Of a DNA stretch of 35,196 nt, positions 1,982-27,254 are shown in pieces; within the stretch, counting starts at the first letter, position 1; each line of letters starts with the position of its first letter. This stretch comes from Nitrospirota bacterium (lineage in GTDB: Bacteria; Nitrospirota; Thermodesulfovibrionia; Thermodesulfovibrionales; SM23-35), in contig JBFMCL010000006.1 in NCBI GenBank assembly GCA_040754395.1, forward strand, positions 1-35,196, read 5' to 3'. The position numbers and the translations under genes are program-made. Under the pieces are notes generated by a model that saw only the letters and a list, made by a program, of their open reading frames with translations, did no database searches and was not told where the DNA came from.

Positions 1982-2948
1982 AATTATTTCGACCGGTTCC
2001 TATCTTCCGGAGAGGGTTCTTTCAAATTCCGAACTTGAGAAAACAGTCGATACGTCCGACGAATGGATTACCGAGAGAACGGGAATAAGGGAAAGAAGGA
2101 TTGCCGATGAAGGGCAGGCGGCGTCAGACCTCGCCTTCGGCGCTTCAAAGGTGGCCATCGAAAGGGCAGGGCTTACGCCCGATGACATTGATCTCATTGT
2201 TGTTGCAACCATTTCGGGCGACATGGCATTCCCCTCTACCGCCTGCTTTCTCCAGCATAAGCTCTCTGCAGCAAGAGCTGCGGGGTTTGATGTCAATGCA
2301 GCCTGTTCAGGGTTCGTGTATGCCCTTCACATTGCCGACAGTTTCATAAGGACCGGTGTGCACAACTACATCCTTGTTGTCGGGACCGAGGTGCTCTCGA
2401 AGATAACGGACTGGGAAGACAGGGCCACATGTGTGCTTTTCGGAGACGGTGCCGGCGCTGCAGTGCTCGGGCCGACCGATGAGGACAGGGGGGTGCTCTC
2501 AACGCACATTAATTCCGACGGCAGTATGTGGGAGCTGATTCACGTTCCGGGCGGTGGATCAAGGCAGCCTGCGTCTGAAGCGTCCGTAAGGAACAAGCAG
2601 CATTATATCAAAATGAAGGGAAACGAGACGTTCAAGGTTGCGGTGAGAACCCTTGAAGAACTTGTGATAAAGACCCTTGAAGAGAACGGGCTTGAACCGT
2701 CGCAGCTTTCCCTGCTTATCCCGCACCAGGCGAACCTGAGGATAATACAGGCAACTGCGGAAAGGCTTGGGATGCCGATGGAAAAGGTTGTCATGAATCT
2801 CGAAAGATACGGCAATACATCAGCGGCTTCCATTCCCATCGCTCTCGATGAGGCTGTTGCATCGGGCAGGGTGAAAGAAGGAGATTACATTCTCCTTGAG
2901 GCGTTCGGCGGAGGGCTCACCTGGGCTTCTGCATTAATAAAGTGGTAA
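1968..2948 (+). CDS. fabH: Beta-ketoacyl-ACP synthase III (KASIII)
   Basis: FabH condenses acetyl-CoA with malonyl-ACP to start type II fatty acid synthesis. The 326 residues include the catalytic triad Cys113 (NAACSGF), His253 (IPHQAN) and Asn283 (YGNTSAAS). The TTG start at 1968 lies inside plsX (14-base overlap); it gives the family N-terminus (RIISTGSYLPERVLSN) at the right distance. The 3' end overlaps the converging histidine kinase gene by 15 bases (2934-2948), with no terminator hairpin between them. It is the housekeeping initiator and distinct from the two FabF-like ketosynthases at 6834-9720. Confidence 0.96.
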   Translation: MRRSRIISTGSYLPERVLSNSELEKTVDTSDEWITERTGIRERRIADEGQAASDLAFGASKVAIERAGLTPDDIDLIVVATISGDMAFPSTACFLQHKLSAARAAGFDVNAACSGFVYALHIADSFIRTGVHNYILVVGTEVLSKITDWEDRATCVLFGDGAGAAVLGPTDEDRGVLSTHINSDGSMWELIHVPGGGSRQPASEASVRNKQHYIKMKGNETFKVAVRTLEELVIKTLEENGLEPSQLSLLIPHQANLRIIQATAERLGMPMEKVVMNLERYGNTSAASIPIALDEAVASGRVKEGDYILLEAFGGGLTWASALIKW

Positions 2949-5090
2949 GTCCCTGATTCTTGCATCAAGAAGCCGTCTTACTGTTGAAAGCAGTTCAATC
3001 CCCTCAAACGGTTTTTTTATGAAAGCGTTCACTGACTCATCCCTGGTTATGGCGTCGGTGCCGTAGCCGGACACAACGATGATCTTGACTCCGGGCCTGA
3101 TTTTCCTGAGATTCATGACCAGTTCCGGCCCTTCCATGAGCGGCATCATGACGTCGGTGATTATCAGCGGGACTTTGTCTGAAACACTCCTGAACGTGTC
3201 GATCGCCGTAAGGGGATTGTGTTCAGGCATGACCGTATAACCGTGTGTTTCGAGGATATCCCTGATATAATTCAGCACATCCCTGTCATCATCGATCACA
3301 AGGATATTCTCATTGCCTTCCACTGAGACAGGAAGCGGCTTAAGCACCTTCGGAGCAGTCTTTTCGGAAACAGGGAAAAAGATGTCAAACGTGGTGCCTT
3401 TGCCCACTTCGCTCTGAACAGAGACATATCCCCTGTGGTCTTTGACTATCCCGTAAACCGTTGCGAGGCCAAGGCCTGTTCCCTTTCCTTTTTCCTTGGT
3501 CGTGAAAAACGGGTCAAATATCTTTCCGATAAGTTCCTGGGGAATGCCGAATCCCGTATCGGAGGCGGTCAGAACGATATATCTGCCCGGAATGATGTAT
3601 GCGGGCATGTCCCTGGAGCTGCTGCCGACGTCGATCATGTCAGTTTTTATGGTGATGAGGCCCCCGTCCGGCATCGCGTCGCGCGCATTGACCATGAGGT
3701 TCATGATCACCTGTTCGATCTGGTTTGGGTCGCCCTCAATCAGGGGGATATTGTTCTGCAGATTTATCTTCAGGCCAATTCTCTTATCCAGTACCCCTTC
3801 GAACAACTTCGCAGAGTCGTTGACAATGTCGTTCAGGCTCAGCGGCAGCACCTCGTGCGCTTCTCTGCGTGCAAAGCTGAGGAGTTTTGATACCATTACC
3901 CCGGCCTTGCGCGCCGAACTTTCGATATTTCTCACCCTCTGTCTCGAAGTGTCATCAAGATTGCTGAACTCCAGCAGCAGCTCGGCATATCCGAGTATCG
4001 CGGTCAGGATATTGTTGAAATTGTGGGCGATCCCCCCGGCGAGCGCCCCGACGGACTCCATCTTCTGGGAATGCATGAGCTGTTCCTGTATTTTCTTCTT
4101 TTCAGTGATATCCCTGTAGAATGACTGGATATAGAGTTCATCGCCAATGGTAATGGCTTTTGAACTGACTTCAAGGAGAACCCTGCTTCCGTCTTTCTTG
4201 TAATGCTCTGTTTCGAAGATGAGGGATTCGCCCTGAAGGATCCTCGAAAACCGGTCAGCATGCTTTTCCCGCTCCCCGCTTGTCTTAAGGAGCTCAACGT
4301 TAATCCCGACTAACGCTGCACGGTCAAACCCATGTATCTCGCAGGCTTTCTGGTTCACATTGACGATGATCCCGTTCTTGTCGAGTACTATAACGCCGTC
4401 AGTCGCATTGTCAAAGATCGACCTGTGCCATTTTTCCGAGATGGCAAGCTCTTTTGTCCGTTCCTGGACCAATTCTTCGAGTTGGGCTGAATAGATTTTG
4501 AGCTGATTTTTTTGTTGATCTAAGTCATACTGAAGACTAAGTTCACTTAAAAGTCTCTTGTGACTCAAAAATCTCCAGATAAAAGCAACCGAAAAAATGG
4601 AAATCATAAAAGCGTTGTTACTCAAAAAAATTGATCGATTGGTTACTTGGTCAAATATCAATATGGGAAATAGATAGATCGAATATATGGAAAATCCGAC
4701 AAAAAACGATAGTGGTAAGTTGAGGGGTAATATTCCTAGAACACAAATGATAAGGAGCGTCATTCCGGCATAGTAAGGTGATTGATGACCGCCGAAAGAA
4801 AGAATCATAAGTTCAATTGCTATTGCTGATGCAATAGCTCCAACTATGAGAAGCGAATATTGATAATATAGACTTTTCTTGAGTCTGTTGAGAAAATATA
4901 GGGAGATTAGAATGGATGAAACTACTAAACGATAGACTATGAACTTATGAAAATTGTCTGGTGTGACGAAATAATCTAATATTCCAATTAACAAAAATAA
5001 AATTGCTCCGAATAAAGCACTCAGACCTGTCCATAAGTGCGTAAGCGTTTCAATGTAGTTTTTTAAATATTGTTCTTTTTCCGATTCCAT
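2934..5090 (-). CDS. Membrane-bound hybrid sensor histidine kinase (TM sensor, PAS, HisKA, HATPase, REC)
   Basis: A 718-residue hybrid kinase. Residues 1-180 are hydrophobic with about six membrane segments and no recognised ligand domain. A short coiled coil (185-220) leads to a PAS domain (about 221-330). The phospho-acceptor is His356 in GGIAHNFNN, an NtrB-like HisKA with Asn in place of the usual Asp. The ATPase has an N box ([11 protein letters not shown]), DTGFGIP (511-517) and GTGLGL (537-542). The C-terminal receiver has Asp646 (ITDVMMP) and KKP near 693. No DNA-binding output is encoded nearby. It is the last gene on the minus strand after the acyl carrier/ketosynthase operon, 49 bases behind the desaturase. 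Base composition changes sharply near codon 200: 4561-4620 is 19/60 GC while 3661-3720 is 37/60, suggesting a chimera of a conserved kinase core with a foreign sensor. Confidence 0.93.
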
Positions 5091-5122
5091 GGCTATATAT
5101 TCAATTTACAAGAAATCATCGT

Positions 5123-5141
5123 GACTGTCGAGCGACAAGTC
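5123..5141. repeat. Imperfect inverted repeat between desaturase and kinase genes
   Basis: GACTGTCG and CGACAAGTC flank a central AG. The inner five pairs are perfect and the outer three pair with one bulge. It abuts the desaturase stop and lies 32 bases before the kinase start. No T-tract follows on the minus strand, so an operator or weak attenuator is as likely as a terminator. A poor promoter-like pair (TTGACT, 17 bases, GATGAT on the minus strand) overlaps it. Confidence 0.3.
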
Positions 5142-6561
5142 AAGAACCCGATTTTTTTACTTTTTTTAGAATTAACCTAGCGGTGTCCATTCCCAAATAT
5201 GCCGCGCCCGGTATCCCTTGTGTTTGTGTCGTCCAGTGTCCGCATAAATAGAGCCTTTTAATTGAGGTAGACTGTCTCAATTCAGGAGTAAATAATTGTG
5301 AAGGTAAACTGGCCCAACCGTAGGCTGCTCCCTTGTAATTGAGAGTATATCTATAAAGGGTATAAGGCGTCGCGGCGTCTTTATAGATGATATGTGAAGA
5401 TAAATGAGGAATTATGTGTTTTTCTATTCGCTCTATGAAGGATTCTAATGATTTAGATTTATTATTTTTCCAGTACGCTCTGTTTTTAAAAGGGGCATTT
5501 ACAAATGCTAAAATAGTCTTATTGTCAGGTGATAAACGTACCATATATCCACCGACAGCTTCCAGGTCTCCCTTTTTTGCATACATATATATTTTGTCTA
5601 AATCATAATAAGGCAAATACCATACGTTGGTGCCTGGGTTTGGCAACGAATCAAAGACTTTATCAATACCCAGGTATAAAATAAAGGTCGACAACGAAGG
5701 AATCATACCATCAATTATTTGTAATACATCTTTGTTTACAGTTTTTTTGCCTAAAAGCTTGAAAAAAGTCTGCATTGCATCGCATGCAGAAATGACATAA
5801 TCAGAAGCGACAAAACCGTAGTTTTCCAGCATTACGCCGGTAACGCGATTATCTTTTGCTCTGATTTTCTTCACCAGGCTTGATAATAATAGCTCCCCAC
5901 CAAATGATTTAAACTTCTCCGCCAGGGTATCTGACAGCACCTGCATTCCTCCCTCGGGATAATACCCACCGTCAAGAATAAATTCAGTAAAAATCTTGGT
6001 ACCTGTGAAGGCAGAGATCATCGAAGGTGGTAATGCCCCATTACCGAAAGAGGGTAACGCGATCATGGCTTTTAAGTGTTCATCCTGAAAATATTGGTCA
6101 AGGAGTTCCTTAAATGTTTGTTTCCTAAATGCTGCAAAATTTATAGGATTAAAGGAGGTAAGGTGCTGGATGAATTTGCGAATATTGGCAGCTTCGTGAG
6201 GGAAAGTGTATTGAATTTGATCAATAGTCTTGTCTAAATCAGGCCAAAAGGTAATTTTGTGGTCAGGGGTAATGATAATATCGGAAGGAACATATCGTTT
6301 TATCTGTAGAGTATTTTCTAACCCGAGTCCTTCAATGATTAGCCTCATGTTTCCACCATGTCTGTAACTACCAAAAGAATGTGCAGCAGCGTCAAAGGTA
6401 TATCTTCCTCTTTTGAAGGAAGTACAATAGCCGCCTGGTTTGTGATGCTGCTCTGCGATAAGTACCTTCATCCCGGCTTTTGCAAGATAGCAGCCGCAGA
6501 CAAGGCCACCGAGTCCTGCCCCTATAATAATAGCGTCATATGAATCGATTTTATCAGGCAT
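5140..6561 (-). CDS. CrtI/phytoene-desaturase-like FAD-dependent oxidoreductase
   Basis: A 473-residue flavoprotein of the phytoene desaturase/retinol saturase superfamily. The N-terminal Rossmann FAD motif is IIIGAGLGGL (about residues 11-20), followed by EQHHKPGGYC. The C-terminal FAD signature is near residues 430-460 (LYLCGHW, then IPGAAYLGMDTA). Such enzymes introduce, move or reduce double bonds in polyenes; the substrate cannot be read from sequence. It starts two bases after the ACP stop, with GGAAG as a plausible ribosome binding site. No phytoene synthase or other carotenoid gene is in the window, so an ACP-bound or released polyene from the adjacent ketosynthases is the more likely substrate (inference). 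CrtI-like enzymes beside FabF, FabZ and ACP also occur in gene sets proposed for ladderane lipid synthesis in anammox bacteria. The gene is very AT-rich (18/60 GC at 5461-5520). Confidence 0.85.
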   Translation of the reverse strand: MPDKIDSYDAIIIGAGLGGLVCGCYLAKAGMKVLIAEQHHKPGGYCTSFKRGRYTFDAAAHSFGSYRHGGNMRLIIEGLGLENTLQIKRYVPSDIIITPDHKITFWPDLDKTIDQIQYTFPHEAANIRKFIQHLTSFNPINFAAFRKQTFKELLDQYFQDEHLKAMIALPSFGNGALPPSMISAFTGTKIFTEFILDGGYYPEGGMQVLSDTLAEKFKSFGGELLLSSLVKKIRAKDNRVTGVMLENYGFVASDYVISACDAMQTFFKLLGKKTVNKDVLQIIDGMIPSLSTFILYLGIDKVFDSLPNPGTNVWYLPYYDLDKIYMYAKKGDLEAVGGYMVRLSPDNKTILAFVNAPFKNRAYWKNNKSKSLESFIERIEKHIIPHLSSHIIYKDAATPYTLYRYTLNYKGAAYGWASLPSQLFTPELRQSTSIKRLYLCGHWTTQTQGIPGAAYLGMDTARLILKKVKKSGS

Positions 6562-6563
6562 TT

Positions 6564-6821
6564 CTAACTTCCATCTGTTTTTTGTTTAAGCAACATTATG
6601 GTCAAATCTATTACCTGTCTAGGAGTGGTAATGCTAGGGATGTCTTCATCTCGCACAGAAATCTTATATTTTTTTTCGATAGCAACAACAATCTCAATTG
6701 CCTTGATTGAATCGATCTCCAAATCATTTGCCAAATTCATATCTGCGGTAATGTCTTCCGTATCCGTTCCTGAAACATCAGAGATAATAGATATGATTTC
6801 TTGCTCTACATTTTCTACCAT
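6564..6821 (-). CDS. Acyl carrier protein of the accessory operon
   Basis: An 85-residue acyl carrier protein. Ser38 in LEIDSIKAIE is the phosphopantetheine attachment site. The DSIK form, rather than DSLD of housekeeping AcpP, resembles carrier domains of secondary lipid and polyketide systems. It is set up by AAGGAG upstream, 12 bases after the ketosynthase stop, and is followed after two bases by the desaturase gene. It presumably carries the chain handled by the two ketosynthases and the dehydratase next to it. No dedicated phosphopantetheinyl transferase is visible, so a cellular one would be needed. Confidence 0.93.
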   Translation of the reverse strand: MVENVEQEIISIISDVSGTDTEDITADMNLANDLEIDSIKAIEIVVAIEKKYKISVRDEDIPSITTPRQVIDLTIMLLKQKTDGS

Positions 6822-6833
6822 TATAGCTCCTTA

Positions 6834-8039
6834 TTAGATGAATTTTTTCAAAACCAGGCAGGCATTATTGCCACCGAAGGCATAAGAATTATTGAGTGCA
6901 AAATTGACTTCACACTCTCTAGAGTCATTTGGAACGCAATCAATATCACATTCAGGATCAGCAGTCTCAAAATTAATTGTCGGTGGTATGATATTATTCT
7001 TCACAGCGAGAGCACAGGCAATTGCCTCAAGTGATGAGGCAGCACCCATTGTGTGTCCGAGCATAGACTTGATTGAACTCACAGGAATGTGCAGATACCT
7101 GTCACCAAACACTTCTTTGATGGCAGCGCATTCGGTTTTGTCATTTGCTGGAGTTCCCGTGCCATGTGCACTGATGTAGTCTACATCCTCTTTTTGAATT
7201 CCTGCATTCTGTAAGGCTTTTGTCATGCACATAGCGACTCCTTCAACCGATGGTTGAGTCATATGACTGGCATCACAGCTAAGCCCATAACCCAATATCT
7301 CCGCATAAATTGTTGCATTCCTTTCCAAAGCGTGTTCTAACGCTTCCAATACGAGTATTCCTGCGCCTTCTGCAACCATCATGCCTTTGCGGTTTTTGTC
7401 AAAAGGCTGACATTTTTCTGGTGCGACAGCCGAAAATTGATTAAAACCGGTGAAAGATATTCTTGAAAATGGGTCTGAGGCACCTGCGAGGACCATATCC
7501 AACCTATTTAAAGATATTAAGTCGAAACCGTAACCTATTGCATAATTACCAGCTGCACAAGCAGTCGAAAATATGTAATTTCCACTGCCAAGATGCAAAT
7601 GCTTTGCTATTGCTGCCGGCGTAGAATGCACTGGAAGCTGACAAATCAGGTTCTGTTCTATATCTTCATTTCTGATTACCTTGTCATTAATATGCTCAAT
7701 GACCTGTATAGATCCTGAAGTTATGCCAATGCAAGTTCCAAATCTTGCAAGAGGTATTTCATGCTGGGGCAAGCGGGAATCCTGTATGGCAAGCAATGAT
7801 GCTGCAATTGCCAGCTGAGACGCGCGACTATGAAAAATCAGGTCTTCGACAGGTAAAAAATTTAAGGGGTCAAACAACTTTACTTCTCCACCATTGTGAG
7901 TAAAATGATTCGATGTATCAAAAGATGACACGGGACTGATCCCGGATTTTCCGTTCAGAAGGCTCTCCCAGAAGTCTTCCCAACCGATGCCGATGGAGGA
8001 AATAACTCCTAATCCAGTTATGACTACTCTCTTATTCAT
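6834..8039 (-). CDS. Beta-ketoacyl-ACP synthase, FabF-like, catalytically intact
   Basis: A 401-residue condensing enzyme with the full KAS I/II triad: Cys161 (STACAAGN), His292 (AHGTGTPAND) and His329 (MLGHTMGAA), plus the conserved Lys324. It would elongate an ACP-bound chain with malonyl units. It overlaps the dehydratase gene upstream by eight bases and is followed by the ACP gene. Its partner is probably the degenerate ketosynthase at 8485-9720, giving a KSalpha/KSbeta (chain-length-factor) pair as in type II polyketide and aryl polyene systems. The two proteins share fold landmarks throughout. The gene is AT-rich compared with the housekeeping fab genes at the window start. Confidence 0.93.
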   Translation of the reverse strand: MNKRVVITGLGVISSIGIGWEDFWESLLNGKSGISPVSSFDTSNHFTHNGGEVKLFDPLNFLPVEDLIFHSRASQLAIAASLLAIQDSRLPQHEIPLARFGTCIGITSGSIQVIEHINDKVIRNEDIEQNLICQLPVHSTPAAIAKHLHLGSGNYIFSTACAAGNYAIGYGFDLISLNRLDMVLAGASDPFSRISFTGFNQFSAVAPEKCQPFDKNRKGMMVAEGAGILVLEALEHALERNATIYAEILGYGLSCDASHMTQPSVEGVAMCMTKALQNAGIQKEDVDYISAHGTGTPANDKTECAAIKEVFGDRYLHIPVSSIKSMLGHTMGAASSLEAIACALAVKNNIIPPTINFETADPECDIDCVPNDSRECEVNFALNNSYAFGGNNACLVLKKFI

Positions 8040-8466
8040 TTTTTACACTAAACACAAGCTCAGCCTCTGAGACTTTGCTTTCATGAACAAATGCTGTTGC
8101 TGACACGTATGCACCATTTGGCAGGGATTTAGTATTAACTGCTTTAATTATTAGCTGATCACCGGGAAAAACGGGATGCAAAAAACGAGCTTTCACCGAA
8201 CCTAAAAAATAAAGTGCCTTCTTCATTCCGTTATTTTGATCGGCAGAAAAAAGCACTATTGCAGCCTGAGCCATAGCTTCTATTATTGCGACTCCAGGCA
8301 TGATTGCCTTTTCAGGAAAATGTCCCAGGAAAAAGATGTCGTTACCCGAAATATTCTTTACCGCAGTGACTTCTTTCCCCGGTGTAAATTCGATGACCTT
8401 ATCGATCATGATGAAAGGAAAACGTTGTGGTATAAATTTCTTTATTTCCTCAAAATCAAGAGTCAT
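8032..8466 (-). CDS. FabZ-like beta-hydroxyacyl-ACP dehydratase (hot-dog fold)
   Basis: A 144-residue protein with the FabZ active site: His49 in FLGHFPEKAIMPGV and Glu63 in IIEAMAQ. The N-terminal QRFPFIMIDKV segment is also typical of FabZ. It would remove water from 3-hydroxyacyl-ACP to give a trans-2-enoyl chain. With no ketoreductase or enoyl reductase in the operon, either primary-metabolism FabG supplies the 3-hydroxy substrate or the chain stays unsaturated (inference). It starts 18 bases after the chain-length-factor stop, with GGAG eight bases before the ATG, and overlaps the intact ketosynthase gene by eight bases. Confidence 0.92.
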   Translation of the reverse strand: MTLDFEEIKKFIPQRFPFIMIDKVIEFTPGKEVTAVKNISGNDIFFLGHFPEKAIMPGVAIIEAMAQAAIVLFSADQNNGMKKALYFLGSVKARFLHPVFPGDQLIIKAVNTKSLPNGAYVSATAFVHESKVSEAELVFSVKNE

Positions 8467-8484
8467 ACTCCAATCTCCATTATA

Positions 8485-9720
8485 TTAGTGTTTTCCAATA
8501 ATGATTGCTGAATTATGTCCGTAAGGATCGGAAGAGATAATCAGGGCTGCATTAACAGGTTGTTTCCTCGCACCATTTAGGACATAATCGAGATTGCATT
8601 CTTGGTCATTTTCTTTATGATTTACTGTAGGCGGGATAATCCCCTTTATGACAGTACCAACAGCGGCTGAAATAGACAGGGTGCCAGAGGCGGAAAATGT
8701 TTCTCCGACCATTGATTTCACCGCACTGACCGGAATGGTATAGGCATCTTTTCCAAAGACAGCCTTAATAACCTCGGTTTCCATCCTGTCAAGTCCTCTG
8801 GTCGAGTTGGCACCTGAAAATATGCAGTCTACTGCCTCAGGTGCCATTGATGCATCTTTCAGGGCAAGGACAATAGCATTTGTGAGACCTGTTCCGGAGC
8901 TATTGAATTTTTTGTCTGCATCGGGATCAAAGGCATTCCCATATCCGAGCACCTTTGCCACGATAGCCGCGCCTCTGCGTAATGCATGATGCTCATCTTC
9001 AAGGACAAGGACTGCTGCCCCCTCCGAGAGGATGATGCCGTTTCTCCGTGCATCAAAGGGGCAGCATATGGGCTCAGAACCATCCATGCCAGACAAATAC
9101 CCGAGTTTATGGAAGCCAAAAAAGGTCTCTTCACACAGTTCTTCGACTGCACCTGCAAGAACAACATCTGCCCTGTTTAAACGGATGAAGTCGGAAGCAT
9201 ATGTCACAGCATCGATTCCTGCGCAAAAACCTGTTGATATGGTGGTGTTGAACCCCTTAATTTGAAACCGGATAGAGACCTGACTTGCGGGAGAATTGAT
9301 TACGGTATTAGGGAAATGTGATGGATTGACATATTTTGGACCTTCTATCAGGCTGTCACGATCGAATTGTGAAATGCTATGGAGACTTCCGAATGTAGTT
9401 CCAATAGAAACACCTGTGATATAGGTGTTTTGCTCAGTAATCTGAAGTTTTGCATCATCAATAGCCAGTTGCGCAGCAGACATTAATAGCTTTGTGCTTC
9501 TGTCGAGCGTGCGGAGCCCCTTTTTCCCTAACAGCGATTCAGGATCGAAATCGCTGATTTCACCGGCGGTGTGAACACTAAATGAGGAAGTGTCAAAAAG
9601 GCCGATCTTTCTAAATCCTGTTCGGCCCTCAAACAGTCCTTCCCAGTAGCGATCTTTGCCTGTGCCGATAGGAGATATAACCCCGATCCCGGTTATGACA
9701 ATATTTCTCCTGGGAATCAT
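8485..9720 (-). CDS. Degenerate ketosynthase, chain-length-factor-like
   Basis: A 411-residue FabF-fold protein that aligns without gaps to its neighbour around the active sites but has lost the catalytic residues. The nucleophile position is Phe165 (ISTGFCAGID; a cysteine sits one residue later). The first His is replaced by Gly303 (FSGANSTRG in place of SAHGTGTPA), and the second by Glu340 (MVGETFSAS). Lys335 is retained. Non-catalytic KS homologues that pair with an active KS are known as chain length factors (KSbeta), in which Cys is often Gln; ketosynthase-like decarboxylases are the alternative. The ATG overlaps the methyltransferase stop by four bases. GC content is intermediate and rises towards the 5' end (35/60 at 9001-9060). 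Confidence 0.88.
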   Translation of the reverse strand: MIPRRNIVITGIGVISPIGTGKDRYWEGLFEGRTGFRKIGLFDTSSFSVHTAGEISDFDPESLLGKKGLRTLDRSTKLLMSAAQLAIDDAKLQITEQNTYITGVSIGTTFGSLHSISQFDRDSLIEGPKYVNPSHFPNTVINSPASQVSIRFQIKGFNTTISTGFCAGIDAVTYASDFIRLNRADVVLAGAVEELCEETFFGFHKLGYLSGMDGSEPICCPFDARRNGIILSEGAAVLVLEDEHHALRRGAAIVAKVLGYGNAFDPDADKKFNSSGTGLTNAIVLALKDASMAPEAVDCIFSGANSTRGLDRMETEVIKAVFGKDAYTIPVSAVKSMVGETFSASGTLSISAAVGTVIKGIIPPTVNHKENDQECNLDYVLNGARKQPVNAALIISSDPYGHNSAIIIGKH

Positions 9721-10997
9721 TTGCGAATAAGATAAAACACTATTATATCGGAATCTTCACGTATCTCGGAGATTGACGCATCGGGTATTCGCGCATGTCT
9801 CAGGATCGTTCTGAAATCTTCTTCATCCCGCTGCAGGAAGCCATCCCAGTCAACAATCCAGTGGTATTCCTGATGACGATATTTGGCAGCATCTTTGAAT
9901 GAAGTAATCAATAACCCACCGGGATTTAGGAGATTGTAAAGAGCATGAATCAGTTTTGTGAGGAAATCAGAATCCAGATAATCGAAGAACCCGACGCTGT
10001 AAATGATGTCTTGTCCTCCAAATTCATTCATATTCAATTCGTGATCAAACATTCTGATTGCGTTGTATTTCCGGAGGATAACCTGATTGGAAGTTGAAGG
10101 TGAAATGTTTGTAAACGAAAGGCGATTTGCGGCAAAAGAAAGCGCATCATTATCAAGGTCAATGCAGGTGAATTTAGCTGCAGATTCCGCTATAGTGGAA
10201 GATATTTCTACAACTTCACGGCAGGAACCACATGCGATATTCAAAACAGAGGAGCCATGTTTTTTCTGCAGTTCATTTTTCAGTATGTCTTCAAGGTTTT
10301 TTAGACGGTTTCTTACAGCTACTGCAAGAGAACTCTCGATCAAGATCGTATCAAGGTAGTGCCCGATTCCTTCAGAAAGCGGAGTTTTTCTATAGATGGT
10401 TTCCAGCATTCTATAATCTCCCTGATATCCCAATGGCCATGTCCTTGCACGGTTAATGGCATAGCTTTTCGACAGTATGGGATTGGTTTTCTGATGGAAA
10501 CGTCTCCGGGCGTCGCGGATAATGGTAATGTCCCGTGTTTCCTGTTCAAAACGCTGGCAGGCGGACAGCACATCATCGAAGGCAGAAGAGATGTCTTTCA
10601 GAATAGTATCCGGATTTGCGTCTTGATCATTGCATCTCTTCTCGATTTCTTCAAGACGCGCATTGAAGATATCCGTTGATTCATCAAGTTCCTTAATGCG
10701 TTTGCCGTCCAGTTCAACCCCGGCTCGGTAGGTGTTATCGAGTTTTTCGCACCATCTGACGAACCCCGCTTTTTCCTGAATCCCGCCGTTGAACCAGAGC
10801 ATATGACCGGGTGAAAGCGGGTAATCAGTCTGTATCCCTATCCCTGCTTCGCTGATGTCGACAGCCTTTCCTTTAAGGTTGAGCCATTTCCGTTCCCTGG
10901 CTTCTGACACGCTCACTGAATAATCGATGGTCTGCGTGAACGGCTTTCTTTCGTACCGTCTTACCTTCTCAAACTGGTGGGTTATCGCATTTTGCAT
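9717..10997 (-). CDS. PilZ domain fused to a SAM-dependent methyltransferase (PhcB/EF-biosynthesis-like)
   Basis: A 426-residue, two-part protein. Residues about 10-100 are a PilZ domain: RRYER (13-17) and DISEAG (47-52) match the c-di-GMP-binding RxxxR and DxSxxG motifs. Residues about 180-426 are a class I methyltransferase with SAM motif I VLNIACGSC (251-259) and an acidic CIDLD (278-282). The segment before it (RTWPLGYQGDY) recalls proteins annotated as extracellular-factor, 3-hydroxypalmitate methyl ester synthesis enzymes (PhcB-like), a resemblance recalled from memory. I moved the start from an ATG at 11033 to the ATG at 10997 because GGGGGAGG lies just before the latter. As first gene of the operon it could methylate the ACP-derived product, with c-di-GMP as switch (inference). 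Confidence 0.82.
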   Translation of the reverse strand: MQNAITHQFEKVRRYERKPFTQTIDYSVSVSEARERKWLNLKGKAVDISEAGIGIQTDYPLSPGHMLWFNGGIQEKAGFVRWCEKLDNTYRAGVELDGKRIKELDESTDIFNARLEEIEKRCNDQDANPDTILKDISSAFDDVLSACQRFEQETRDITIIRDARRRFHQKTNPILSKSYAINRARTWPLGYQGDYRMLETIYRKTPLSEGIGHYLDTILIESSLAVAVRNRLKNLEDILKNELQKKHGSSVLNIACGSCREVVEISSTIAESAAKFTCIDLDNDALSFAANRLSFTNISPSTSNQVILRKYNAIRMFDHELNMNEFGGQDIIYSVGFFDYLDSDFLTKLIHALYNLLNPGGLLITSFKDAAKYRHQEYHWIVDWDGFLQRDEEDFRTILRHARIPDASISEIREDSDIIVFYLIRK

Positions 10998-11000
10998 AAG

Positions 11001-11010
11001 ATCCTCCCCC
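11001..11010 (-). promoter_or_regulatory. Ribosome binding site deciding the start of the PilZ-methyltransferase gene
   Basis: On the minus strand GGGGGAGGAT precedes the ATG at 10997 at normal spacing. The alternative ATG at 11033, 12 codons upstream, has no such sequence. Confidence 0.7.
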
Positions 11011-11230
11011 GTTATTACGGTTCTTTCTTTCATACTCAGTTTTTACTGAACTGTTCCTGCATCTTCAAAACATAACGCTCTACATTTCTGCTGTCCTCCT
11101 TTTTGCAAAAACGTATATTATGATCGGTCTTTGTTTTTTATGGGTTTTTTCTGACCTCGATTGAGACGCAATCCTTTGAATATTCTTTCGGACTTATCCT
11201 TAGGTATTTACTTGATCTGATCGCAGTCCT

Positions 11231-12001
11231 TTATTTCTGTGTCATCTTGTCATAAAACGGCTTGAGCAGGTCTACGGGAACCGGGAATATTATTGTTGAA
11301 TTTTTTTCTGTAGCGATTTCCGTGAGAGTCTGAAGGAACCTGAGCTGCAATGCTCCGCTTTCTGTCGATATAATCTTTGCCGCATCTGCAAGCTTCTGGG
11401 ATGCCTGATACTCTCCCTCTGCATGGATGACTTTCGCCCTTCTTTCACGTTCAGCTTCTGCCTGCTTTGCGATAGCCCGCTGCATCTCTTCAGGCAGATC
11501 GACATTCTTGACCTCGACCGCTGTGACCTTAATGCCCCATGGTTCTGTCTGGAAGTCGATAACCTTCTGCAACTCCGTGTTCAGGTCTTCCCTTTTCGTG
11601 AGGAGATCGTCAAGCTGACTCTGCCCAAGGATGCTCCTGAGCGTTGTTTGGGCAATCTGCGAGGTGGCAAAATAAAAATCCTCAACCTCCGTGATCGCCT
11701 TAATCGGGTCCATAACCCTGAAATACACCACTGCGTTTACCTTCACGGTGATATTGTCCTGCGTAATGATGTCCTGTGACGGAACATCCATGGTAACGAT
11801 TCTGAGGCTGACTTTTACCAGCTTGTCAATGATCGGCCAGATGATTACCAGGCCGGGACCTTTCACCGGGATAATCCTTCCAAGCCTGAATACGACACCA
11901 CGCTCATATTCCTTCAGGATTTTTATCGCACTTGAAAGAAAATACAGGACGAAAAATGCTATCAGGAGAAAACTCATGAATGAAGGTGCTAAAGTCGGCA
12001 T
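11231..12001 (-). CDS. Slipin (stomatin-like SPFH/band 7 membrane protein)
   Basis: A 256-residue SPFH protein with one N-terminal membrane helix (about residues 7-25) and the slipin core ([32 protein letters not shown]). An Ala/Glu-rich coiled coil follows ([20 protein letters not shown]). Slipins form ring oligomers and membrane microdomains, and NfeD-type proteases act on them. It has a strong ribosome binding site (AAGGAGG, five bases from the ATG). It lies 99 bases downstream of nfeD on the same strand, the usual nfeD-slipin pairing. Confidence 0.93.
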
Positions 12002-12100
12002 ACATACCTCCTTTTTAACTAAGTTTTGTAGATGGTTTTTCCCAAATGAAAATGAAAATATTCAGCCGGTAAACCGGGCAAACCATATGTCCCCGATTCC

Positions 12101-13423
12101 TCACGGTGATTTTCTTACCTTTACCTTGAGCCCTGATATTGACTCAACCACGACCTTGTCGCCTTTGGCTATGGGTTCATCGGCGCAGGCTGACCATCGT
12201 TCTCCGTGCAGCGAGACCATGCCCGTGTCGCGGGTAATATCTGTATCTGCGATGCCCTGCAATCCGATGAGGCCTTCATATCCGGTAAGCGGTTTTCTCT
12301 TGTATGCCTTAAATGCAAGGCCGAATGTCAGCGTAAAAAACAGGGCGGTTGTCAGCGCGGCAGGGATTATGATGGCGAGCGAAAGCTTCATGAAAGGTGC
12401 GGGGGATTCGAAGAGCATCAGTGAACCTATTACCATAGAGATGATACCGCCGATTGTGAGCACTCCATGAGAAGTGATCTTTATTTCGAGCACGAAGAGA
12501 ATGATCGAGAGAATGATCAGGAGAAGTCCTGCGTAATTCACCGGAAGGGTCTGGAATGCGTAGAATGCAAGAATGACACATATCCCCCCGATGACTCCCG
12601 GGAAAAGGGAGCCCGGGTTTGTAAGTTCGAAGAACAGTCCGTAAAAACCAAGGAGCATAAGAATGTACGCGATATTGGGGTCAGTAATGAGGTTGAGTAT
12701 CCTGTACCTGAGCCCCATTTCTTCTCTGTTGACGACGGTATCCTTCGTGCTGAGGGTTTTTTCTCCTGTTACTGTTTTCACTTTTTTGCCGTCGATATCC
12801 GACAAAAGAGAATTAATATCCTTGGAGACGAGGTCGATAATATTTCCTTGCAGCGCCTCTGTCTCGGTTGCGGAAATGCTCTTTCTGACTGCTTCCTCAG
12901 CCCATTGCGCGTTTCGTCCCCTGCTTTCAGCAAGGGATTTAATGTACGCAGCAGCGTCATTGGTTGCTTTTTCAGACATTGTCTTGTCCATCTTCTCACC
13001 GACACCTACAGGATGCGCTGCACCGATATTCGTTCCCGGTGCCATTGCTGCAACATGTGAAGCAATGGCAATGAACACCCCTGCAGATGCTGCCCTGCTG
13101 CCGCTTGGTGAGACAAAGACCACCACTGGCACATCGCTTCCGATAATATCCTTCACAATGGTTCTCATTGAGGTATCGAGTCCGCCGGGTGTGTCCAGCT
13201 CAATGACAAGCGCTTCAGCTCTTTTTGCATTTGCGCTTTTTATGCTCTTCCCGATAAATTCTGCCGAGACAGGATTAATGACCCCGTTTACGGTGATTAC
13301 CATGACCTCTTTTTTCGTCTCTGATGAAAGGGGAGAAGTGAGGAAAAAAAATGTCAGGACCAAAAGAACAGAGGTGCTCATAAATATAAACATATTCTTT
13401 AAGATTATCTGCTTACTTTTCAT
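12101..13423 (-). CDS. nfeD: NfeD membrane-bound serine protease (ClpP class, long form)
   Basis: A long-form NfeD (about 440 residues from the ATG at 13423). An N-terminal signal/anchor is followed by a ClpP-like periplasmic protease with LDTPGGLDTS (77-86), catalytic Ser113 in RAASAGVF and a probable catalytic Lys152 (SEKATND). Four to five membrane helices and a C-terminal OB-fold (about 370-440) follow. Homologues cleave the C-terminus of their slipin partner, encoded next. A longer reading from 13465 is unlikely because the promoter at 13434-13462 would lie inside it. The ATG at 13423 has no ribosome binding site and begins about 10 bases after the -10 box; ATGs at 13393 or 13381 are alternatives. 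Confidence 0.9.
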   Translation of the reverse strand: MKSKQIILKNMFIFMSTSVLLVLTFFFLTSPLSSETKKEVMVITVNGVINPVSAEFIGKSIKSANAKRAEALVIELDTPGGLDTSMRTIVKDIIGSDVPVVVFVSPSGSRAASAGVFIAIASHVAAMAPGTNIGAAHPVGVGEKMDKTMSEKATNDAAAYIKSLAESRGRNAQWAEEAVRKSISATETEALQGNIIDLVSKDINSLLSDIDGKKVKTVTGEKTLSTKDTVVNREEMGLRYRILNLITDPNIAYILMLLGFYGLFFELTNPGSLFPGVIGGICVILAFYAFQTLPVNYAGLLLIILSIILFVLEIKITSHGVLTIGGIISMVIGSLMLFESPAPFMKLSLAIIIPAALTTALFFTLTFGLAFKAYKRKPLTGYEGLIGLQGIADTDITRDTGMVSLHGERWSACADEPIAKGDKVVVESISGLKVKVRKSP

Positions 13424-13433
13424 AATATAATGA

Positions 13434-13462
13434 ATTATAGACATTTGAAAAATAAAATGCAA
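13434..13462 (-). promoter_or_regulatory. Promoter of nfeD-slipin
   Basis: On the minus strand TTGCAT (13462-13457), 17 bases, then TATAAT (13439-13434). The -10 box ends ten bases before the ATG at 13423, so the mRNA would have a leader of only a few bases. Confidence 0.6.
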
Positions 13463-13497
13463 CAAAGGAGGAAAAGGAGGGAAAAGAAAATATTCTG

Positions 13498-14430
13498 TTA
13501 GTCTTCCAGTAGCTCTTTCAGTGTTTGCAGAACCGATTCACTGAGTGCCGGAAGATTATACCCGCCCTCGAGGGCAAACACATATGGCAGTGAAGGAAGG
13601 TACGTGGTGGTTCTCCTGAGGAGAATCCCCCTAATGATGCTTCTCATGCCTTCATTTGTTATCTTGATTCCGGAAAGAGGGTCACTGACATGAATATCGT
13701 ACCCGGCTGAAACAAGAATAATGTCGGGCCGGAAATTCTTGATGAGCCTGGGAAGGATATCCCGGTAGGCATAGTAATAGTCTTTGTCTCCCGATCCTAA
13801 TGGCATTGCGATGTTGTAAGTAAATCCCTCGCCTTTACCTTTACCCCTTTCAGTATCGTTTCCTGTTCCCGGATAGTGCGGGTACTGATGAGTACTGAAA
13901 AAGAAGACCGTGTCGTCTTCCTCGAAAATGTGCTGTGTTCCGTTTCCGTGGTGTACATCGAAATCAATGATGAAAACCCTGTTGTAACCGATTTTCTGTG
14001 CAAAACGCGCGCCTACTGCAATATTATTGAATATGCAGAACCCCATTGCCCTGCCGGATTCAGCGTGATGCCCCGGCGGCCTGACAGCACAGAATGCCCT
14101 GTCAATCTCGCCTTTTTTGCATCTCTCTATCGCTTCAATCACAGAACCCGCAGCATACAGTGCCGCCTCGAATGTATTTTCCGAGACGTATGTGTCCCCG
14201 TCGTAGTAACCGGTAAAACCGCTTATTCTGTCAAAATAATCTTTGGTGTGGACCTGTAGAATGTCTTCTTTTGCAGCGCGTCGCGGGTTAAGATGGATGA
14301 GCTGATCCCAGATTTCAGATTTTTTCAGGGTATCAAGTATCCTGAGCAGCCTCTGCGGGGATTCAGGATGCCCCGGCGGCATTTCATGTTTCAGAAAAAT
14401 ATTATCGTAGAGAAATCCGACTTTTTTCAT
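13498..14430 (-). CDS. Histone-deacetylase/AcuC-family zinc deacetylase
   Basis: A roughly 310-residue class II-like HDAC fold protein. It carries RPPGHHAE (catalytic His pair), DFDVHHGNGTQ (zinc Asp and His), THQYPHYPGTG, SAGYDIHVSDPL (second zinc Asp) and the terminal LEGGYN. Bacterial members remove acyl groups from lysines, polyamines or small molecules; the substrate cannot be assigned here. The ATG at 14430 gives the family N-terminus (KKVGFLYDNIFLKHEMPPGHPE). A TTG at 14457 would extend it through the terminator hairpin of the preceding gene and is less likely. Neither start has a clear ribosome binding site. The nfeD promoter lies just downstream of its stop. Confidence 0.9.
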   Translation of the reverse strand: MKKVGFLYDNIFLKHEMPPGHPESPQRLLRILDTLKKSEIWDQLIHLNPRRAAKEDILQVHTKDYFDRISGFTGYYDGDTYVSENTFEAALYAAGSVIEAIERCKKGEIDRAFCAVRPPGHHAESGRAMGFCIFNNIAVGARFAQKIGYNRVFIIDFDVHHGNGTQHIFEEDDTVFFFSTHQYPHYPGTGNDTERGKGKGEGFTYNIAMPLGSGDKDYYYAYRDILPRLIKNFRPDIILVSAGYDIHVSDPLSGIKITNEGMRSIIRGILLRRTTTYLPSLPYVFALEGGYNLPALSESVLQTLKELLED

Positions 14431-14437
14431 GCGCAAT

Positions 14438-14468
14438 ATAAAAGAGGACAACCACAACGGTTGTCCTC
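14438..14468 (-). terminator. Rho-independent terminator of fhs
   Basis: On the minus strand GAGGACAACC and GGTTGTCCTC form a perfect ten-base-pair stem around the loop GTTGT, followed directly by TTTTATATT. It lies 26 bases after the fhs stop and ends only about ten bases before the deacetylase ATG. Confidence 0.8.
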
Positions 14469-16467: not shown

Positions 16468-16923
16468 TTAGTAGCTGATCAGTGCACTCAGGAACTTGTC
16501 GTTCATCCTCCGCAGGTTTTTGCTCATGGCTATCGCAATTTTTTTGACTATACAGAGGGCCAGTGTGCAGTCTTCGTCCATCATTCGTTCGAATTCCTCT
16601 TTCGGTATCAGCAGGAGTTCCGTGTCTTCAAGCGCTACCGCGGAAGCAACGTGCTTTCTGTTCTCGAGAATGGAAAGCTCTCCGAAAAAATGACCTGCCG
16701 GAAGCACAACAAGCGTTTGTCTCCAGCCATCTGCGGTTACCCGGGAAATCTCTATTTTCCCCGACTGGATCATCCACAACCCCTGAGTTTCATCCGTTTC
16801 CTTGAAGAGAGGTTCGCTCTTCTTGAGTGAAATCTGCTTCACAATCTTTGCGATCTTGTTCAGTCCCGGGGTGTCCATTTCCTGCAGCAGAACCTGCTGT
16901 TTCAATACTTTCTGGCTAATCAT
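16468..16923 (-). CDS. Stand-alone cyclic-nucleotide-binding domain protein (Crp-type, no HTH)
   Basis: About 151 residues that contain only a Crp/PKA-type beta-barrel domain and a short C-terminal helix; there is no helix-turn-helix. The barrel core GHFFGELSILENRKHVASA aligns with the phosphate-binding cassette, but the usual ligand-contacting Arg (PRAA) is replaced (KHVA). Canonical cAMP binding is therefore doubtful. The start is the ATG at 16923, preceded by AAAGGAGGGA; an upstream ATG at 16947 lacks one. It overlaps the 3' end of fdhA by eight bases, so translation is coupled to the formate dehydrogenase. A sensor or protein-protein regulator of that enzyme is possible but unproven. Confidence 0.85.
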   Translation of the reverse strand: MISQKVLKQQVLLQEMDTPGLNKIAKIVKQISLKKSEPLFKETDETQGLWMIQSGKIEISRVTADGWRQTLVVLPAGHFFGELSILENRKHVASAVALEDTELLLIPKEEFERMMDEDCTLALCIVKKIAIAMSKNLRRMNDKFLSALISY

Positions 16924-19687
16924 GATACTCCCTCCTTTTACGTACATATTTTTTTTGGTCTGTATGTTTTACGTTAACCGCGCACACCTTGAGTTCGGGT
17001 ATTCTGGATATCGGGTCAGATGCAGTGTTTGTCAGTATGTTGGCAGCGGCTTCACTGAAGTGAAAAGGCATAAAAAGCACCCCTTTGGATGGCCTGCCGG
17101 AAATTCTTACCTGCGTGTCCACAGATCCTCTTCTGGAGGAAACCCTGACCATATCCCCATCGGCAAATCCCAGCATTTCCGCATCCTCGGGATGCATCTC
17201 GATATATGCTGCAGGAGATATTATGTTGATTGCATCAACACGTCTTGTCATGGTTCCCGTATGATACTGAAACAGTACTCTTCCCGTGGTAAAAATGAAA
17301 GGATACCGGCTGTCGGGAAGTTCTTCAGAAGGTCTGTAATGGACGGCGGTAAATGCGGCCTTGCCTCTTGGAAAACCTCCCTTAAAGAGATATTGTGTGC
17401 CGGGATGGTTTTTTGTAGGACATGGCCACTGGAGTCCATGCCGGGATATTCTTTTATAGGTGATACCGGCCAATGCCGGCCAGAGTTTTCCTGTTTCGTG
17501 CAAAACATCCTCAATAAGGCTGTAATTCATCTCAAAGCCGAGACGTTTTGACAGGTCAATGATAATGTGGGAATCTTCCCTTGCTTCCCCCGGAGGCGCC
17601 AGTGCCTTCCGGATTCTCTGAACCGTCCGCGATGTATTGGTGAATGTGCCGTCCTTTTCTGCAAAGCATGCTGCAGGCAGCACCACATCCGCGAATTCAG
17701 CAGTTTCGGTCAGGAAGATATCCTGAACCACCAGGAAATCCAGATTCCTGAGAGCCCTGACAGTATGGTGCATATCCGGGTCGCTCAGGACAGGGTTTTC
17801 CCCCATGATATACATTGCCCTGAGTTTTTTCTTCAGGGCCGCCTGTGTCATCTCAGTGGCGGTCAGGCCGGGTCTGTCGGAGAGTTGACTGCCCCATGCA
17901 GCCTGAAATTTTTCTTTCACTCCGGGGATAGTGGTTCTTTGATACCCGGGATAGAAATCCGGTATGCATCCCATGTCGGTCGCACCCTGGACATTATTCT
18001 GTCCTCTCAGCGGATTTACCCCGGTGCTTTCCCTTCCGAGATTGCCGGTCATGAGTGCAAGATTGGCGATGGCAAACACATTTTCTGTTCCATGGGTGTG
18101 CTGGGTAATGCCCATGGTATAGTAAATACCCGGGCGGACGGCCGACCCGTAAAGAAGGGCTGCCTTAATGATATCTCCTTTCGGCACTCCTGTAATCCTC
18201 TCTCCTTCTTCAGGGGTATACTCCGCGAGGGAATCCTTCAGTGCTTCATATCCTTCCGTGCGTTCTTTTATGAACTTGTTGTCGACAAGTCCCTCCCTGA
18301 TTATTACGTGCATCATGGCGTTCAGGAGCGCGACATCAGTACCCGGCCTCTGCTGCAGCCACACCGAAGAAAACCTCACAAGGTCGATCTTTCTGGGGTC
18401 GGCCACGATAATGTCAGCACCCCTTCTTGCCGCTTTTTTCATTCTTAGTCCGATGATCGGGTGGGCCTCCGTGGTGTTGGAGCCGATTACAAAAATGAGA
18501 TCATGATTCTCTATCTCGGCTATTGAGTTTGTCATTGCACCGGAACCGAAGACTCTGGCCAGACCGGCCACAGAGGAACTGTGTCAGTAGCGCGCACAAT
18601 GATCGACGTTGTTTGTTCCGATGACAGCCCTCATGAATTTCTGAAAAAGGTAATTCTCCTCGTTTGTGCACCGCGCTGAGGAAAGCCCGCCGATCGAGTC
18701 GGGTCCGTGTGCAGCTTTTATATCCCTGAATCTCTCTGCGATATGATCCAGTGCCTCATCCCACGAGACTTCTCTGAACCGTGAATATCCTTTCAGTTTT
18801 TCCTGGCCACGCGTTGTCAGAACCTTGCCGGAGGTATCTTCATCTTTGGGGGCAATTCTAATCAGTGGTTTTGTGAGTCTGTCGCTGCTGCTGATGAATC
18901 CGTACCCGAATCTGCCTTTCGCGCAGAGCCAACCTTCATTGACTGTGTCTTCCCTGGAAGAGACTCTTCTTACCTCATTGCGCCACACATGCAGTGTGAT
19001 ATTGCAGCCGCAGCCGCAGTAGGGGCAGATGGTATCAACTTCGCTGAAATTCTGTCTTCCCTTCTGGGCCCACATCTTGCCTGTAAGCGCGCCAGTAGGG
19101 CAGATTGCAACGCATTGACCGCAGAACTCGCAGTTCAGGTCTTTTTCGAAAGGTGGACAGATTTTTGTTTTCATCCCGCGGTATGCAAAGTCGATCGCGC
19201 CGACACCCTGTATTTCATCACAGATGCGTACACATTTACCGCACAGGATGCATTTTTCCATATCCCTGTCGATGAAAGGGTTGTTGTCTTTTTTCGCATA
19301 TGTTCTTCTTTCGCCAAAGAAACGGTTTTCCCGTATTCCGTAGAAATAGGCCAGTTCCTGAAGCTTGCAGTCACCGGCCCTTTCGCAGACCATGCAGTCT
19401 GTAGGATGGTCTGAGAGTATAAGCTCGAGGGTTGTTCTTCTCAGTTTCTCTATGTATGGGCTTGTCGTTCTTACCTCCATTCCCTCTTTCGCGAACGTTG
19501 TGCACGCGGTCACAGGTTTCCGGGAACCTTTAATTTCGACCAAACAGAGCCTGCACCCTCCGAACGGCGAAAGATCGGGGTGATGGCACAGTGTGGGTAT
19601 GGGAATGTCAAGTTTTCTCGCAGCATCGAGGATTGTCGACAATTTCCTCACCGTGATTTTTTTGCCGTCTATCCTGAGCGTCACCAT
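16916..19687 (-). CDS. fdhA: NAD-dependent formate dehydrogenase catalytic subunit, selenocysteine-containing
   Basis: One 923-residue protein read through an in-frame TGA at 18586-18584 (Sec368). Order: a NuoG-like [2Fe-2S] domain (C34, C45, C48, C62); a His-ligated [4Fe-4S] cluster (H94, C98, C101, C107); two ferredoxin-type clusters (C146-C156, C186-C196); the molybdopterin-domain [4Fe-4S] cluster (CPYCGCGC, 221-228, and C255); then the Mo/W-bisPGD catalytic domain. The context of the TGA, NNVDHCARY-U-HSSSVAGL, matches NNVDCCARV-U-HGPSVAGL of E. coli FdhF, and a SECIS hairpin follows. If Sec is ignored the gene falsely splits in two at 18584. It oxidises formate or reduces CO2, exchanging electrons with NAD through NuoEF encoded upstream. 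The start at 19687 gives the conserved N-terminus. Confidence 0.93.
18553..18586 (-). promoter_or_regulatory. Bacterial SECIS element of fdhA
   Basis: Directly after the TGA (18586-18584) the mRNA can fold as CUCU, a GU bulge, GGCC, loop GGUCU, GGCC, AGAG. The apical loop GGUCU and its distance of 18 bases from the UGA are the same as I recall for the E. coli fdhF SECIS, including an unpaired U in the upper stem. The element is inside the coding region, as usual for bacteria, and would recruit SelB with Sec-tRNA. Confidence 0.85.
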
Positions 19688-27249: not shown

Positions 27250-27254
27250 TGATT

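Follow-up and report, generated by a model that had tools for sequence, protein, structure and literature searches.

The 35,196-nucleotide stretch analyzed here (the window; contig JBFMCL010000006.1 of the Nitrospirota bacterium assembly GCA_040754395.1) carries on its minus strand a compact operon for a ketosynthase (KS), a chain-length-factor-like partner (CLF), a FabZ-type dehydratase, an acyl carrier protein (ACP), a CrtI-like enzyme, a PilZ-methyltransferase (MT) and a hybrid sensor histidine kinase (Table 1). A preliminary description had recognized the first six of these as genes that overlap or lie at most 18 bases apart, and this holds: all six open reading frames (ORFs) are intact, the gaps from CrtI through ACP, KS, FabZ and CLF to MT being 2, 12, −8, 18 and −4 bp (with MT taken as ORF 9717-11033), and all six families are supported by both Pfam and NCBIfam. 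Its MT start at 10997 is also preferable to the longest-ORF start at 11033, as a GGGGAGG box lies just 5′ of 10997 and the MQN/MEN encoded there is also where close orthologues start. What it overlooked is a seventh gene, the sensor kinase (2934-5090), which is separated from CrtI by 49 bp.

Table 1. Genes and domains of the operon, with the matches that identify them (SD, Shine–Dalgarno sequence; SAM, S-adenosylmethionine)
Feature	Position	Strand	Evidence
Hybrid sensor histidine kinase, seventh operon gene: membrane sensor, PAS, HisKA, HATPase_c, receiver	2934..5090	-	Pfam; recurrent neighbour of CrtI
Kinase sensor domain, aa 1-185	4536..5090	-	AF2 pLDDT 90, six helices; VIA Z 16.8, 3.0 Å/180 residues to adenylyl cyclase 7pd4
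CrtI-like FAD-dependent desaturase/isomerase	5140..6561	-	Amino_oxidase 3.8e-22 (Pfam); crtI_fam 1.1e-38, under its curated cut-off; PDB 4dgk 3.8e-23
ACP, Ser in EIDS motif	6564..6821	-	PP-binding 1.4e-13 (Pfam); top PDB matches 7qv0_D, 7auf_A, 9s5i_E
KS, catalytic residues intact	6834..8039	-	Top PDB match 9s5h_B 1.7e-143; residue alignment
FabZ-type dehydratase	8032..8466	-	NF000582 over its cut-off; top PDB matches 8ayd, 7qv0, 8ayb
CLF-like KS partner without Cys/His	8485..9720	-	Top PDB match 9s5h_C 1.2e-111; residue alignment
PilZ-methyltransferase (MT), first operon gene	9717..10997	-	Pfam; start from SD and orthologues; longest ORF to 11033
Methyltransferase half: helical part and class I SAM fold	9720..10688	-	AF2; nearest solved 3ocj, Foldseek 7.1e-12, VIA Z 20.8
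PilZ domain, RxxxR and DxSxxG motifs	10707..10964	-	PF07238 1.3e-4

The FabF chain 4ls6, which we take to be the Bacillus subtilis protein, was the reference for comparing catalytic residues. In the alignment, the eight positions listed in Rattray's Table 2 read C,H,T,T,K,H,E,F in the window KS, which is the FabF set, and F,G,N,T,K,E,S,P in the CLF, which thus lacks the Cys and both His. Families and residue alignment agree with the intact KS, non-catalytic partner, FabZ-like dehydratase, private ACP, CrtI-like enzyme and methyltransferase proposed at the outset. PDB chain 9s5h_C, with V,N,Y,G,K,E,Q,R, is identical to all eight residues of Kuste3606 printed in the excerpt of PMC2649909, and because of this identity we take 9s5h as the Kuenenia KS/CLF pair or a close orthologue. 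It is the top PDB match of both proteins: 481.5 bits for the KS to 9s5h_B (next 6kxd at 347, FabF at 300) and 376.8 bits for the CLF to 9s5h_C (next FabF at 251.8), with identities of 55.5% versus 39.8% to FabF for the KS and 47.2% versus 34.8% for the CLF. FabZ matches 8ayd, 7qv0, 8ayb, 8ayi and 8ayc best (129-121 bits; next 104.5), while the ACP, with 46.8-42.8 bits to 7qv0_D, 7auf_A and 9s5i_E, barely discriminates since the next match (40) follows closely behind. We take the 7qv0, 7auf and 8ay entries to be anammox proteins, and 6kxd to be the polyene-type KS of ishigamide. In a careful tree of 40 rows, 19 KS (including 9s5h_B and 6kxd) and 18 CLF (including 9s5h_C) each form a clade at 100/100, and the two clades together are separated from three FabF-type rows at 100/99, the branching order within the KS clade being open. 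The window KS shares its clade, apart from FabF (100/100), with a single presumed polyene KS, 6kxd. The acyl builder would thus be a ladderane-like, polyene-type type II synthase without a radical SAM enzyme, in keeping with the near-minimal type II system, and plausible polyene-type chain, of the preliminary description.

None of the ten ORFs scanned (2934-14457) was found to have a domain of a radical SAM enzyme, acyltransferase, thioesterase or enoyl reductase, nor is an aromatic starter gene among them, as had been stated. The ketoreductase, listed as absent along with them, is missing only locally: FabG, called by Pfam and NCBIfam, is encoded in 17 of 32 sister operons, and a fabG-like gene lies beside fabF elsewhere in the window's own genome. 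The proposed mixed overlap with ladderane and aryl polyene gene sets stands as far as the missing radical SAM and aromatic starter genes are concerned, but the operon is not equidistant from the two, its KS, CLF and FabZ being nearest to the anammox structures. Strict ladderane membership was rejected because a radical SAM gene is absent from these ten ORFs, and aryl polyene membership because they hold no aromatic starter, acyltransferase or thioesterase gene beside the KS set.

A genome-contig scan with the CLF alignment returned 196 relatives, the best 80 of which were kept for locus counts. Of these, 32 are Nitrospirota-type loci (L042 and L053 among them, although their records are titled otherwise), and the other 48 come almost entirely from Omnitrophota, so that the synthase is found both in Nitrospirota (Thermodesulfovibrionia) and in Omnitrophota. 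A published catalogue of KS/CLF sets includes Omnitrophica and Nitrospirae (excerpt of PMC10132072), and the ladderane clusters that antiSMASH calls in Omnitrophota and further phyla have no established function (excerpt of PMC9902471). The gene-neighbourhood search suggested earlier shows one order recurring, as far as the contigs reach, in the 32 Nitrospirota-type loci: MT-(FabG)-CLF-(FabZ)-KS-ACP-(CrtI)-kinase. Many loci are cut by contig ends, and the counts per gene are MT 30, FabG 17, FabZ 16, KS 26, ACP 20, CrtI 16 and kinase 14; the contigs of L042 and L057 start at FabG and do not include MT. FabZ is truly absent between CLF and KS in some loci (e.g. L038, L046, L051, L067, L068). The cassette order is split in L053 and in genome G026, where MT-FabG-CLF precede unrelated genes and CrtI lies on another contig (G038 has the same layout of lengths). 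Of the 12 full-length CrtI ORFs in Nitrospirota loci, 11 have the kinase directly next, and the contig of the twelfth (L074) ends 162 bp past CrtI; the kinase belongs to the operon as its seventh gene.

Within the window's order (176 genomes; thresholds E 1e-100 for CLF, 1e-40 for MT and 1e-40 for CrtI) we found CLF in 32 genomes, all of which lie among the 48 that have MT. CrtI was counted in 27, a number that takes in G426, G427 and G442, at 34-35% identity only, and some fragments. MT is present and CLF lacking, at these thresholds, in sixteen genomes. The kinase is the very next gene after MT, in the same orientation, in 14 of these genomes (15 loci); for the remaining two, G456 and G009, the contig stops at or inside MT. 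The synthase genes thus appear as a cassette that lies between the two. One and the same chromosomal site, NfeD-SPFH-VTT-MT-kinase, occurs without the cassette in L134, L135 and L138 (the last starting at SPFH) and with it, between MT and kinase, in L020 and others. This pairing of MT and kinase independently of the acyl builder was also overlooked in the preliminary description, which as a whole is partly supported, and it makes a sensed (signal) lipid more likely as the function, and a bulk product less so. A receiver-HD_5 protein, presumably of the HD-GYP type, adjoins the kinase in four MT-kinase pairs (L130, L136, L140, L141), an HD_5 protein lies near L131, and a sigma-54 activator is found upstream of two pairs (L128, L130).

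The histories of these parts were compared in trees. In the MT tree (48 rows, 46 of them different, 33 with and 15 without the cassette; L137 was left out as its contig ends after MT) all cassette loci fall on one side of a branch, which amounts to one change (SH-aLRT 98, starred), and a careful tree of 27 rows gave the same cassette split at 100/97, again starred. The sensor part and the PAS-kinase core were analyzed separately (30 rows, 28 different, 17 with and 13 without the cassette). The sensor tree shows one cassette change (89/91) and the core tree three, the core data rejecting a single clade of cassette rows (approximately unbiased (AU) test, p 8.3e-6). Conversely, the sensor data reject a core clade of 15 rows (p 1.6e-4) and two smaller groups from the core (p 5.9e-7 and 4.4e-9), and the MT data reject the 12 rows of that core clade that have MT (p 0.011). 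The conflict of the sensor and MT trees with the core tree points to a mosaic kinase, MT, cassette and sensor sharing one history and the kinase half another. Judged by these sequences, MT, cassette and sensor appear to behave as one unit. Such co-sorting would follow from a single exchange, or a few, of one contiguous segment, and it may reflect selection for matching synthase and sensor.

The PilZ domain at the N-terminus of MT is matched barely over the Pfam cut-off (22.6 versus 22.5). The RxxxR and DxSxxG motifs of PilZ domains mean binding of cyclic di-GMP (c-di-GMP), and the protein is a candidate c-di-GMP receptor by its motifs. The AF2 model of MT has a pLDDT of 85. Its nearest solved fold is 3ocj, a Bordetella protein of unknown function (Z 20.8 over 248 residues), followed by methyltransferases of small molecules, tRNA and proteins with Z from 19.6 down to 16.2, and the fold therefore does not name a substrate. 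Plasmid records contain distant MT matches only (128 records at E ≤ 1e-4, all below 60% identity; 137 records at E ≤ 0.01 with a 327-aa MT piece as query). Of the two plasmid neighbourhoods inspected, that of Pseudanabaena adjoins a histidine kinase and receiver and that of Rhizobium etli p42e does not; on the former plasmid (L147, 4908-7527) the distant MT relative lies end to end with the histidine kinase and receiver, beside a Tn3 transposase. As further observations on MT, the N-termini of one subgroup (L043, L046, L051) have a PilZ part followed by a CxxC-CxxC zinc-ribbon-like stretch, and other MTs have no N-terminal domain at all. Upstream of MT, SPFH, NfeD and histone-deacetylase-family genes (window 11231-14457) are syntenic in several genomes of the family, the relatives often having a VTT protein.

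For the sensor part of the kinase, VIA-align of the AF2 model gave Z 17.1 with ImcA (5.4 Å over 216), 13.1-16.8 with adenylyl cyclases 9, 5 and 8, and 9.2 with Rv1625c, the next unrelated row being at 9.3. Foldseek returned no match at E < 0.001 (best 0.016), so that the assignment of the fold is taken from VIA-align. The model suggests a six-helix membrane domain like the anchors of adenylyl cyclases, with no periplasmic domain. No match to this domain was found in plasmid records at E ≤ 0.01. According to the excerpt of PMC4821796, CqsS is built on the same six-helix plan as the cyclase anchors, and in response to its lipophilic ligand it can drive a cyclase.

Among the 48 other loci of the best 80, an acyl-thioester reductase lies in the cluster in 12 (AAR-like acyl-ACP reductase in 5, thioester-reductase-like in 7); an eighth thioester-reductase-like match, in L099, is weak, and the TIGR04058, PigE and TIGR01746 matches are all under their curated cut-offs. 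Nitroreductase-like proteins occur in 7 loci and a kinase of at least 560 aa on the same strand in 9, with receivers after the kinase in L064 and L107; in L093 an MT (27%) lies directly before a kinase. The Nitrospirota sensor profile gave no match to the kinases of these loci at E 1e-3. Separately, in L060 (5573-14885) CLF, FabG and FabZ form a trio that lacks KS, with riboflavin/NusB genes on one side and a phosphoesterase-DNA ligase pair on the other, and the Omnitrophota loci L063, L078 and L081 have neighbours of the same lengths as around this trio. The L097 record, titled Planctomycetales, shares its phylum group with the genome of L060, which is from Omnitrophota, and is probably mislabelled; CLF matches at E 1e-95 in 60 of 285 in that group.

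Elsewhere in the window, a molybdopterin-domain gene (FdhA/NuoG-like; 16916-19687, minus strand) is split by one in-frame TGA (18584-18586; context HCARYUHSSSVAGL), which looks like the selenocysteine codon of a formate-dehydrogenase-type selenoprotein. A PEP synthase/PPDK-like gene (27249-29648) lies between two separate kinase-pyrophosphorylase (PF03618) genes at 26416-27249 and 30089-30937.

We tentatively read the seven-gene operon, with a confidence just short of even, as a lipid-signal system in which an unsaturated chain is built, methylated and sensed by the kinase. KS/CLF, FabZ and the private ACP would build a partly or fully unsaturated acyl chain, unsaturated because the operon has no enoyl reductase, with FabG borrowed from the fabG-like gene beside fabF or, in sister operons, encoded on the spot. 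The CrtI-like enzyme would then add or move double bonds, and the PilZ-MT would methylate the chain, as a methyl ester or a methyl branch, probably tuned by c-di-GMP. The hybrid histidine kinase at the end of the operon would detect the product through its six-helix membrane domain. A bolder version, which we hold possible and clearly less probable than the general reading, is a new class of cell-cell signalling: a ladderane-like KS/CLF makes a polyene-type chain, a c-di-GMP-gated MT converts it to a diffusible signal, a six-helix receptor kinase from the same operon receives that signal, and cassette, MT and sensor are exchanged as a specificity module with the kinase half staying with its host; in some Omnitrophota an acyl-thioester reductase would cap the chain as an aldehyde or alcohol.

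Several observations speak against the lipid-signal reading. The split in the sensor tree is not starred, and contiguity alone can give MT, cassette and sensor a common history. The sensor fold values are good but not overwhelming, since mostly helical models without a clear match typically reach a best Z of about 14 in VIA-align; a simple hydropathy pick gave five separate membrane segments, not six, and a common fold shows no ligand for the sensor. Omnitrophota kinases carry a different membrane region. PilZ is missing from several MTs (L053, L058, L059, L134) and CrtI from between ACP and kinase in L038 and L054. CrtI is also found without CLF at threshold in G003, G010 (a fragment) and G439, and at 34-35% identity in G426, G427 and G442, and G002 has a below-threshold CLF fragment (52% over 258 residues) and no MT.

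The main rival is remodelling of membrane lipids, which we consider unlikely but serious: the cassette would make an unusual (polyunsaturated or cyclised) membrane acyl chain, MT would modify lipids, and a DesK-like kinase would sense the state of the membrane and control synthesis. DesK itself adjoins a desaturase gene and offers a precedent. The nearest solved relatives are enzymes proposed for the anammox membrane lipid, the operon converges on plsX-fabH, and related Desulfotalea clusters accompany C31:8 and C31:9 hydrocarbons in the excerpt of PMC2649909, which proposes anaerobic synthesis of polyunsaturated lipids for such clusters. Remodelling sits poorly, however, with an MT-kinase pair that persists without the acyl builder alongside, and with a sensor that sorts with MT and cassette and not with its own kinase core, which a general fluidity sensor would not need. 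Overall we hold a signal about twice as probable as a membrane lipid.

A polyene pigment or antioxidant of aryl-polyene-like type, with the kinase as private regulator, seems improbable. The grouping of the KS with 6kxd, which we take to be the ishigamide polyene KS, away from FabF, and the lack of an enoyl reductase in the operon would suit it, but the ten ORFs scanned hold no aromatic starter, acyltransferase, thioesterase or exporter, and the MT-kinase pair on its own is left unexplained. Very improbable is a ladderane or ladderane precursor, in spite of the identities to 9s5h, the match of 9s5h_C to Kuste3606 at all eight residues given in the excerpted table, and CrtI-like, FabZ and ACP genes as in kuste3603-3607: no radical SAM gene like kuste3608 is among the ORFs scanned, kuste3603-3608 yielded no new product in E. 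coli, and ladderanes are reported only from anammox bacteria. A duplicate of ordinary fatty acid synthesis, finally, to which the FabF/FabZ-like families might point, is largely refuted and the least credible of all. It was rejected on the separation of the KS and CLF clades from FabF (100/99); the cell carries a separate fabG-like gene next to fabF, and CLF occurs in only 32 of the 176 genomes of the order.

A lipid-signal system of this kind would matter in several respects. Ladderane-type clusters outside anammox bacteria are without established function (excerpt of PMC9902471), and a receptor kinase linked to the synthase offers a direct, testable one. With the kinase as a reporter, the product could be sought in bacteria that are represented here almost entirely by metagenome-assembled genomes. 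If the reading is true, the range of signals that six-helix receptor kinases read would extend to a polyketide-type lipid, and ladderane research would gain a simpler KS/CLF/FabZ/ACP/CrtI set for reconstitution; its confirmation would mean a new kind of bacterial chemical signalling.

The operon is real and conserved, and it stands nearest to a known but unexplained kind, the ladderane-like KS/CLF clusters. With anammox kuste3603-3608, the ladderane candidates, to whose products or orthologues we take PDB entries 9s5h, 9s5i, 7qv0 and 8ayb to belong, it has in common the KS, a Cys-less CLF with Glu333, FabZ, ACP and the CrtI-like enzyme; the window adds MT and kinase and lacks the radical SAM enzyme, route and product being unproven in both. 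Highly reducing type II polyketide synthases, as we presume 6kxd to be, share the KS clade and the KS/CLF/dehydratase/ACP polyene logic, whereas the window has in addition a CrtI-like enzyme, MT and kinase, and organism and product differ. The antiSMASH ladderane-type clusters of non-anammox phyla, Omnitrophota included, have no known function; the excerpt of PMC9902471 names no MT-kinase pairing, and its list does not include Nitrospirota. In our best reading the operon would work in a manner analogous to Phc or Lqs quorum sensing. The receptors CqsS and LqsS carry a six-helix membrane sensor on a histidine kinase, as modelled for the window, the likeness being one of predicted fold; CqsA, in contrast to the synthase described here, is a pyridoxal phosphate enzyme, as LqsA is described to be. 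In the Phc system of Ralstonia (phcBSRQ) the genes for the PhcB methyltransferase and the PhcS kinase are adjacent in one operon and an acyl substrate is proposed (excerpts of PMC10653808, PMC11960443, PMC8578825). The likeness is one of gene layout, present as such in the cassette-less relatives, whereas in the window the cassette lies between the two genes; Phc signals are 3-hydroxy fatty acid methyl esters, and the excerpts name neither a KS cassette nor PilZ for Phc. The sensor part of ComP varies with the signal genes. At the comQXP pherotype loci signal genes likewise co-vary with the receptor (excerpt of PMC4408185), the signal there being a peptide, and photopyrone signals are made by a ketosynthase (excerpt of PMC4578411). 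The titles and abstract openings listed gave no published description of a ladderane-like KS/CLF cassette coupled to a methyltransferase and a receptor kinase. As far as these listings show, what sets the operon apart from all these systems is this coupling of a KS/CLF cassette to MT and a mosaic receptor kinase.

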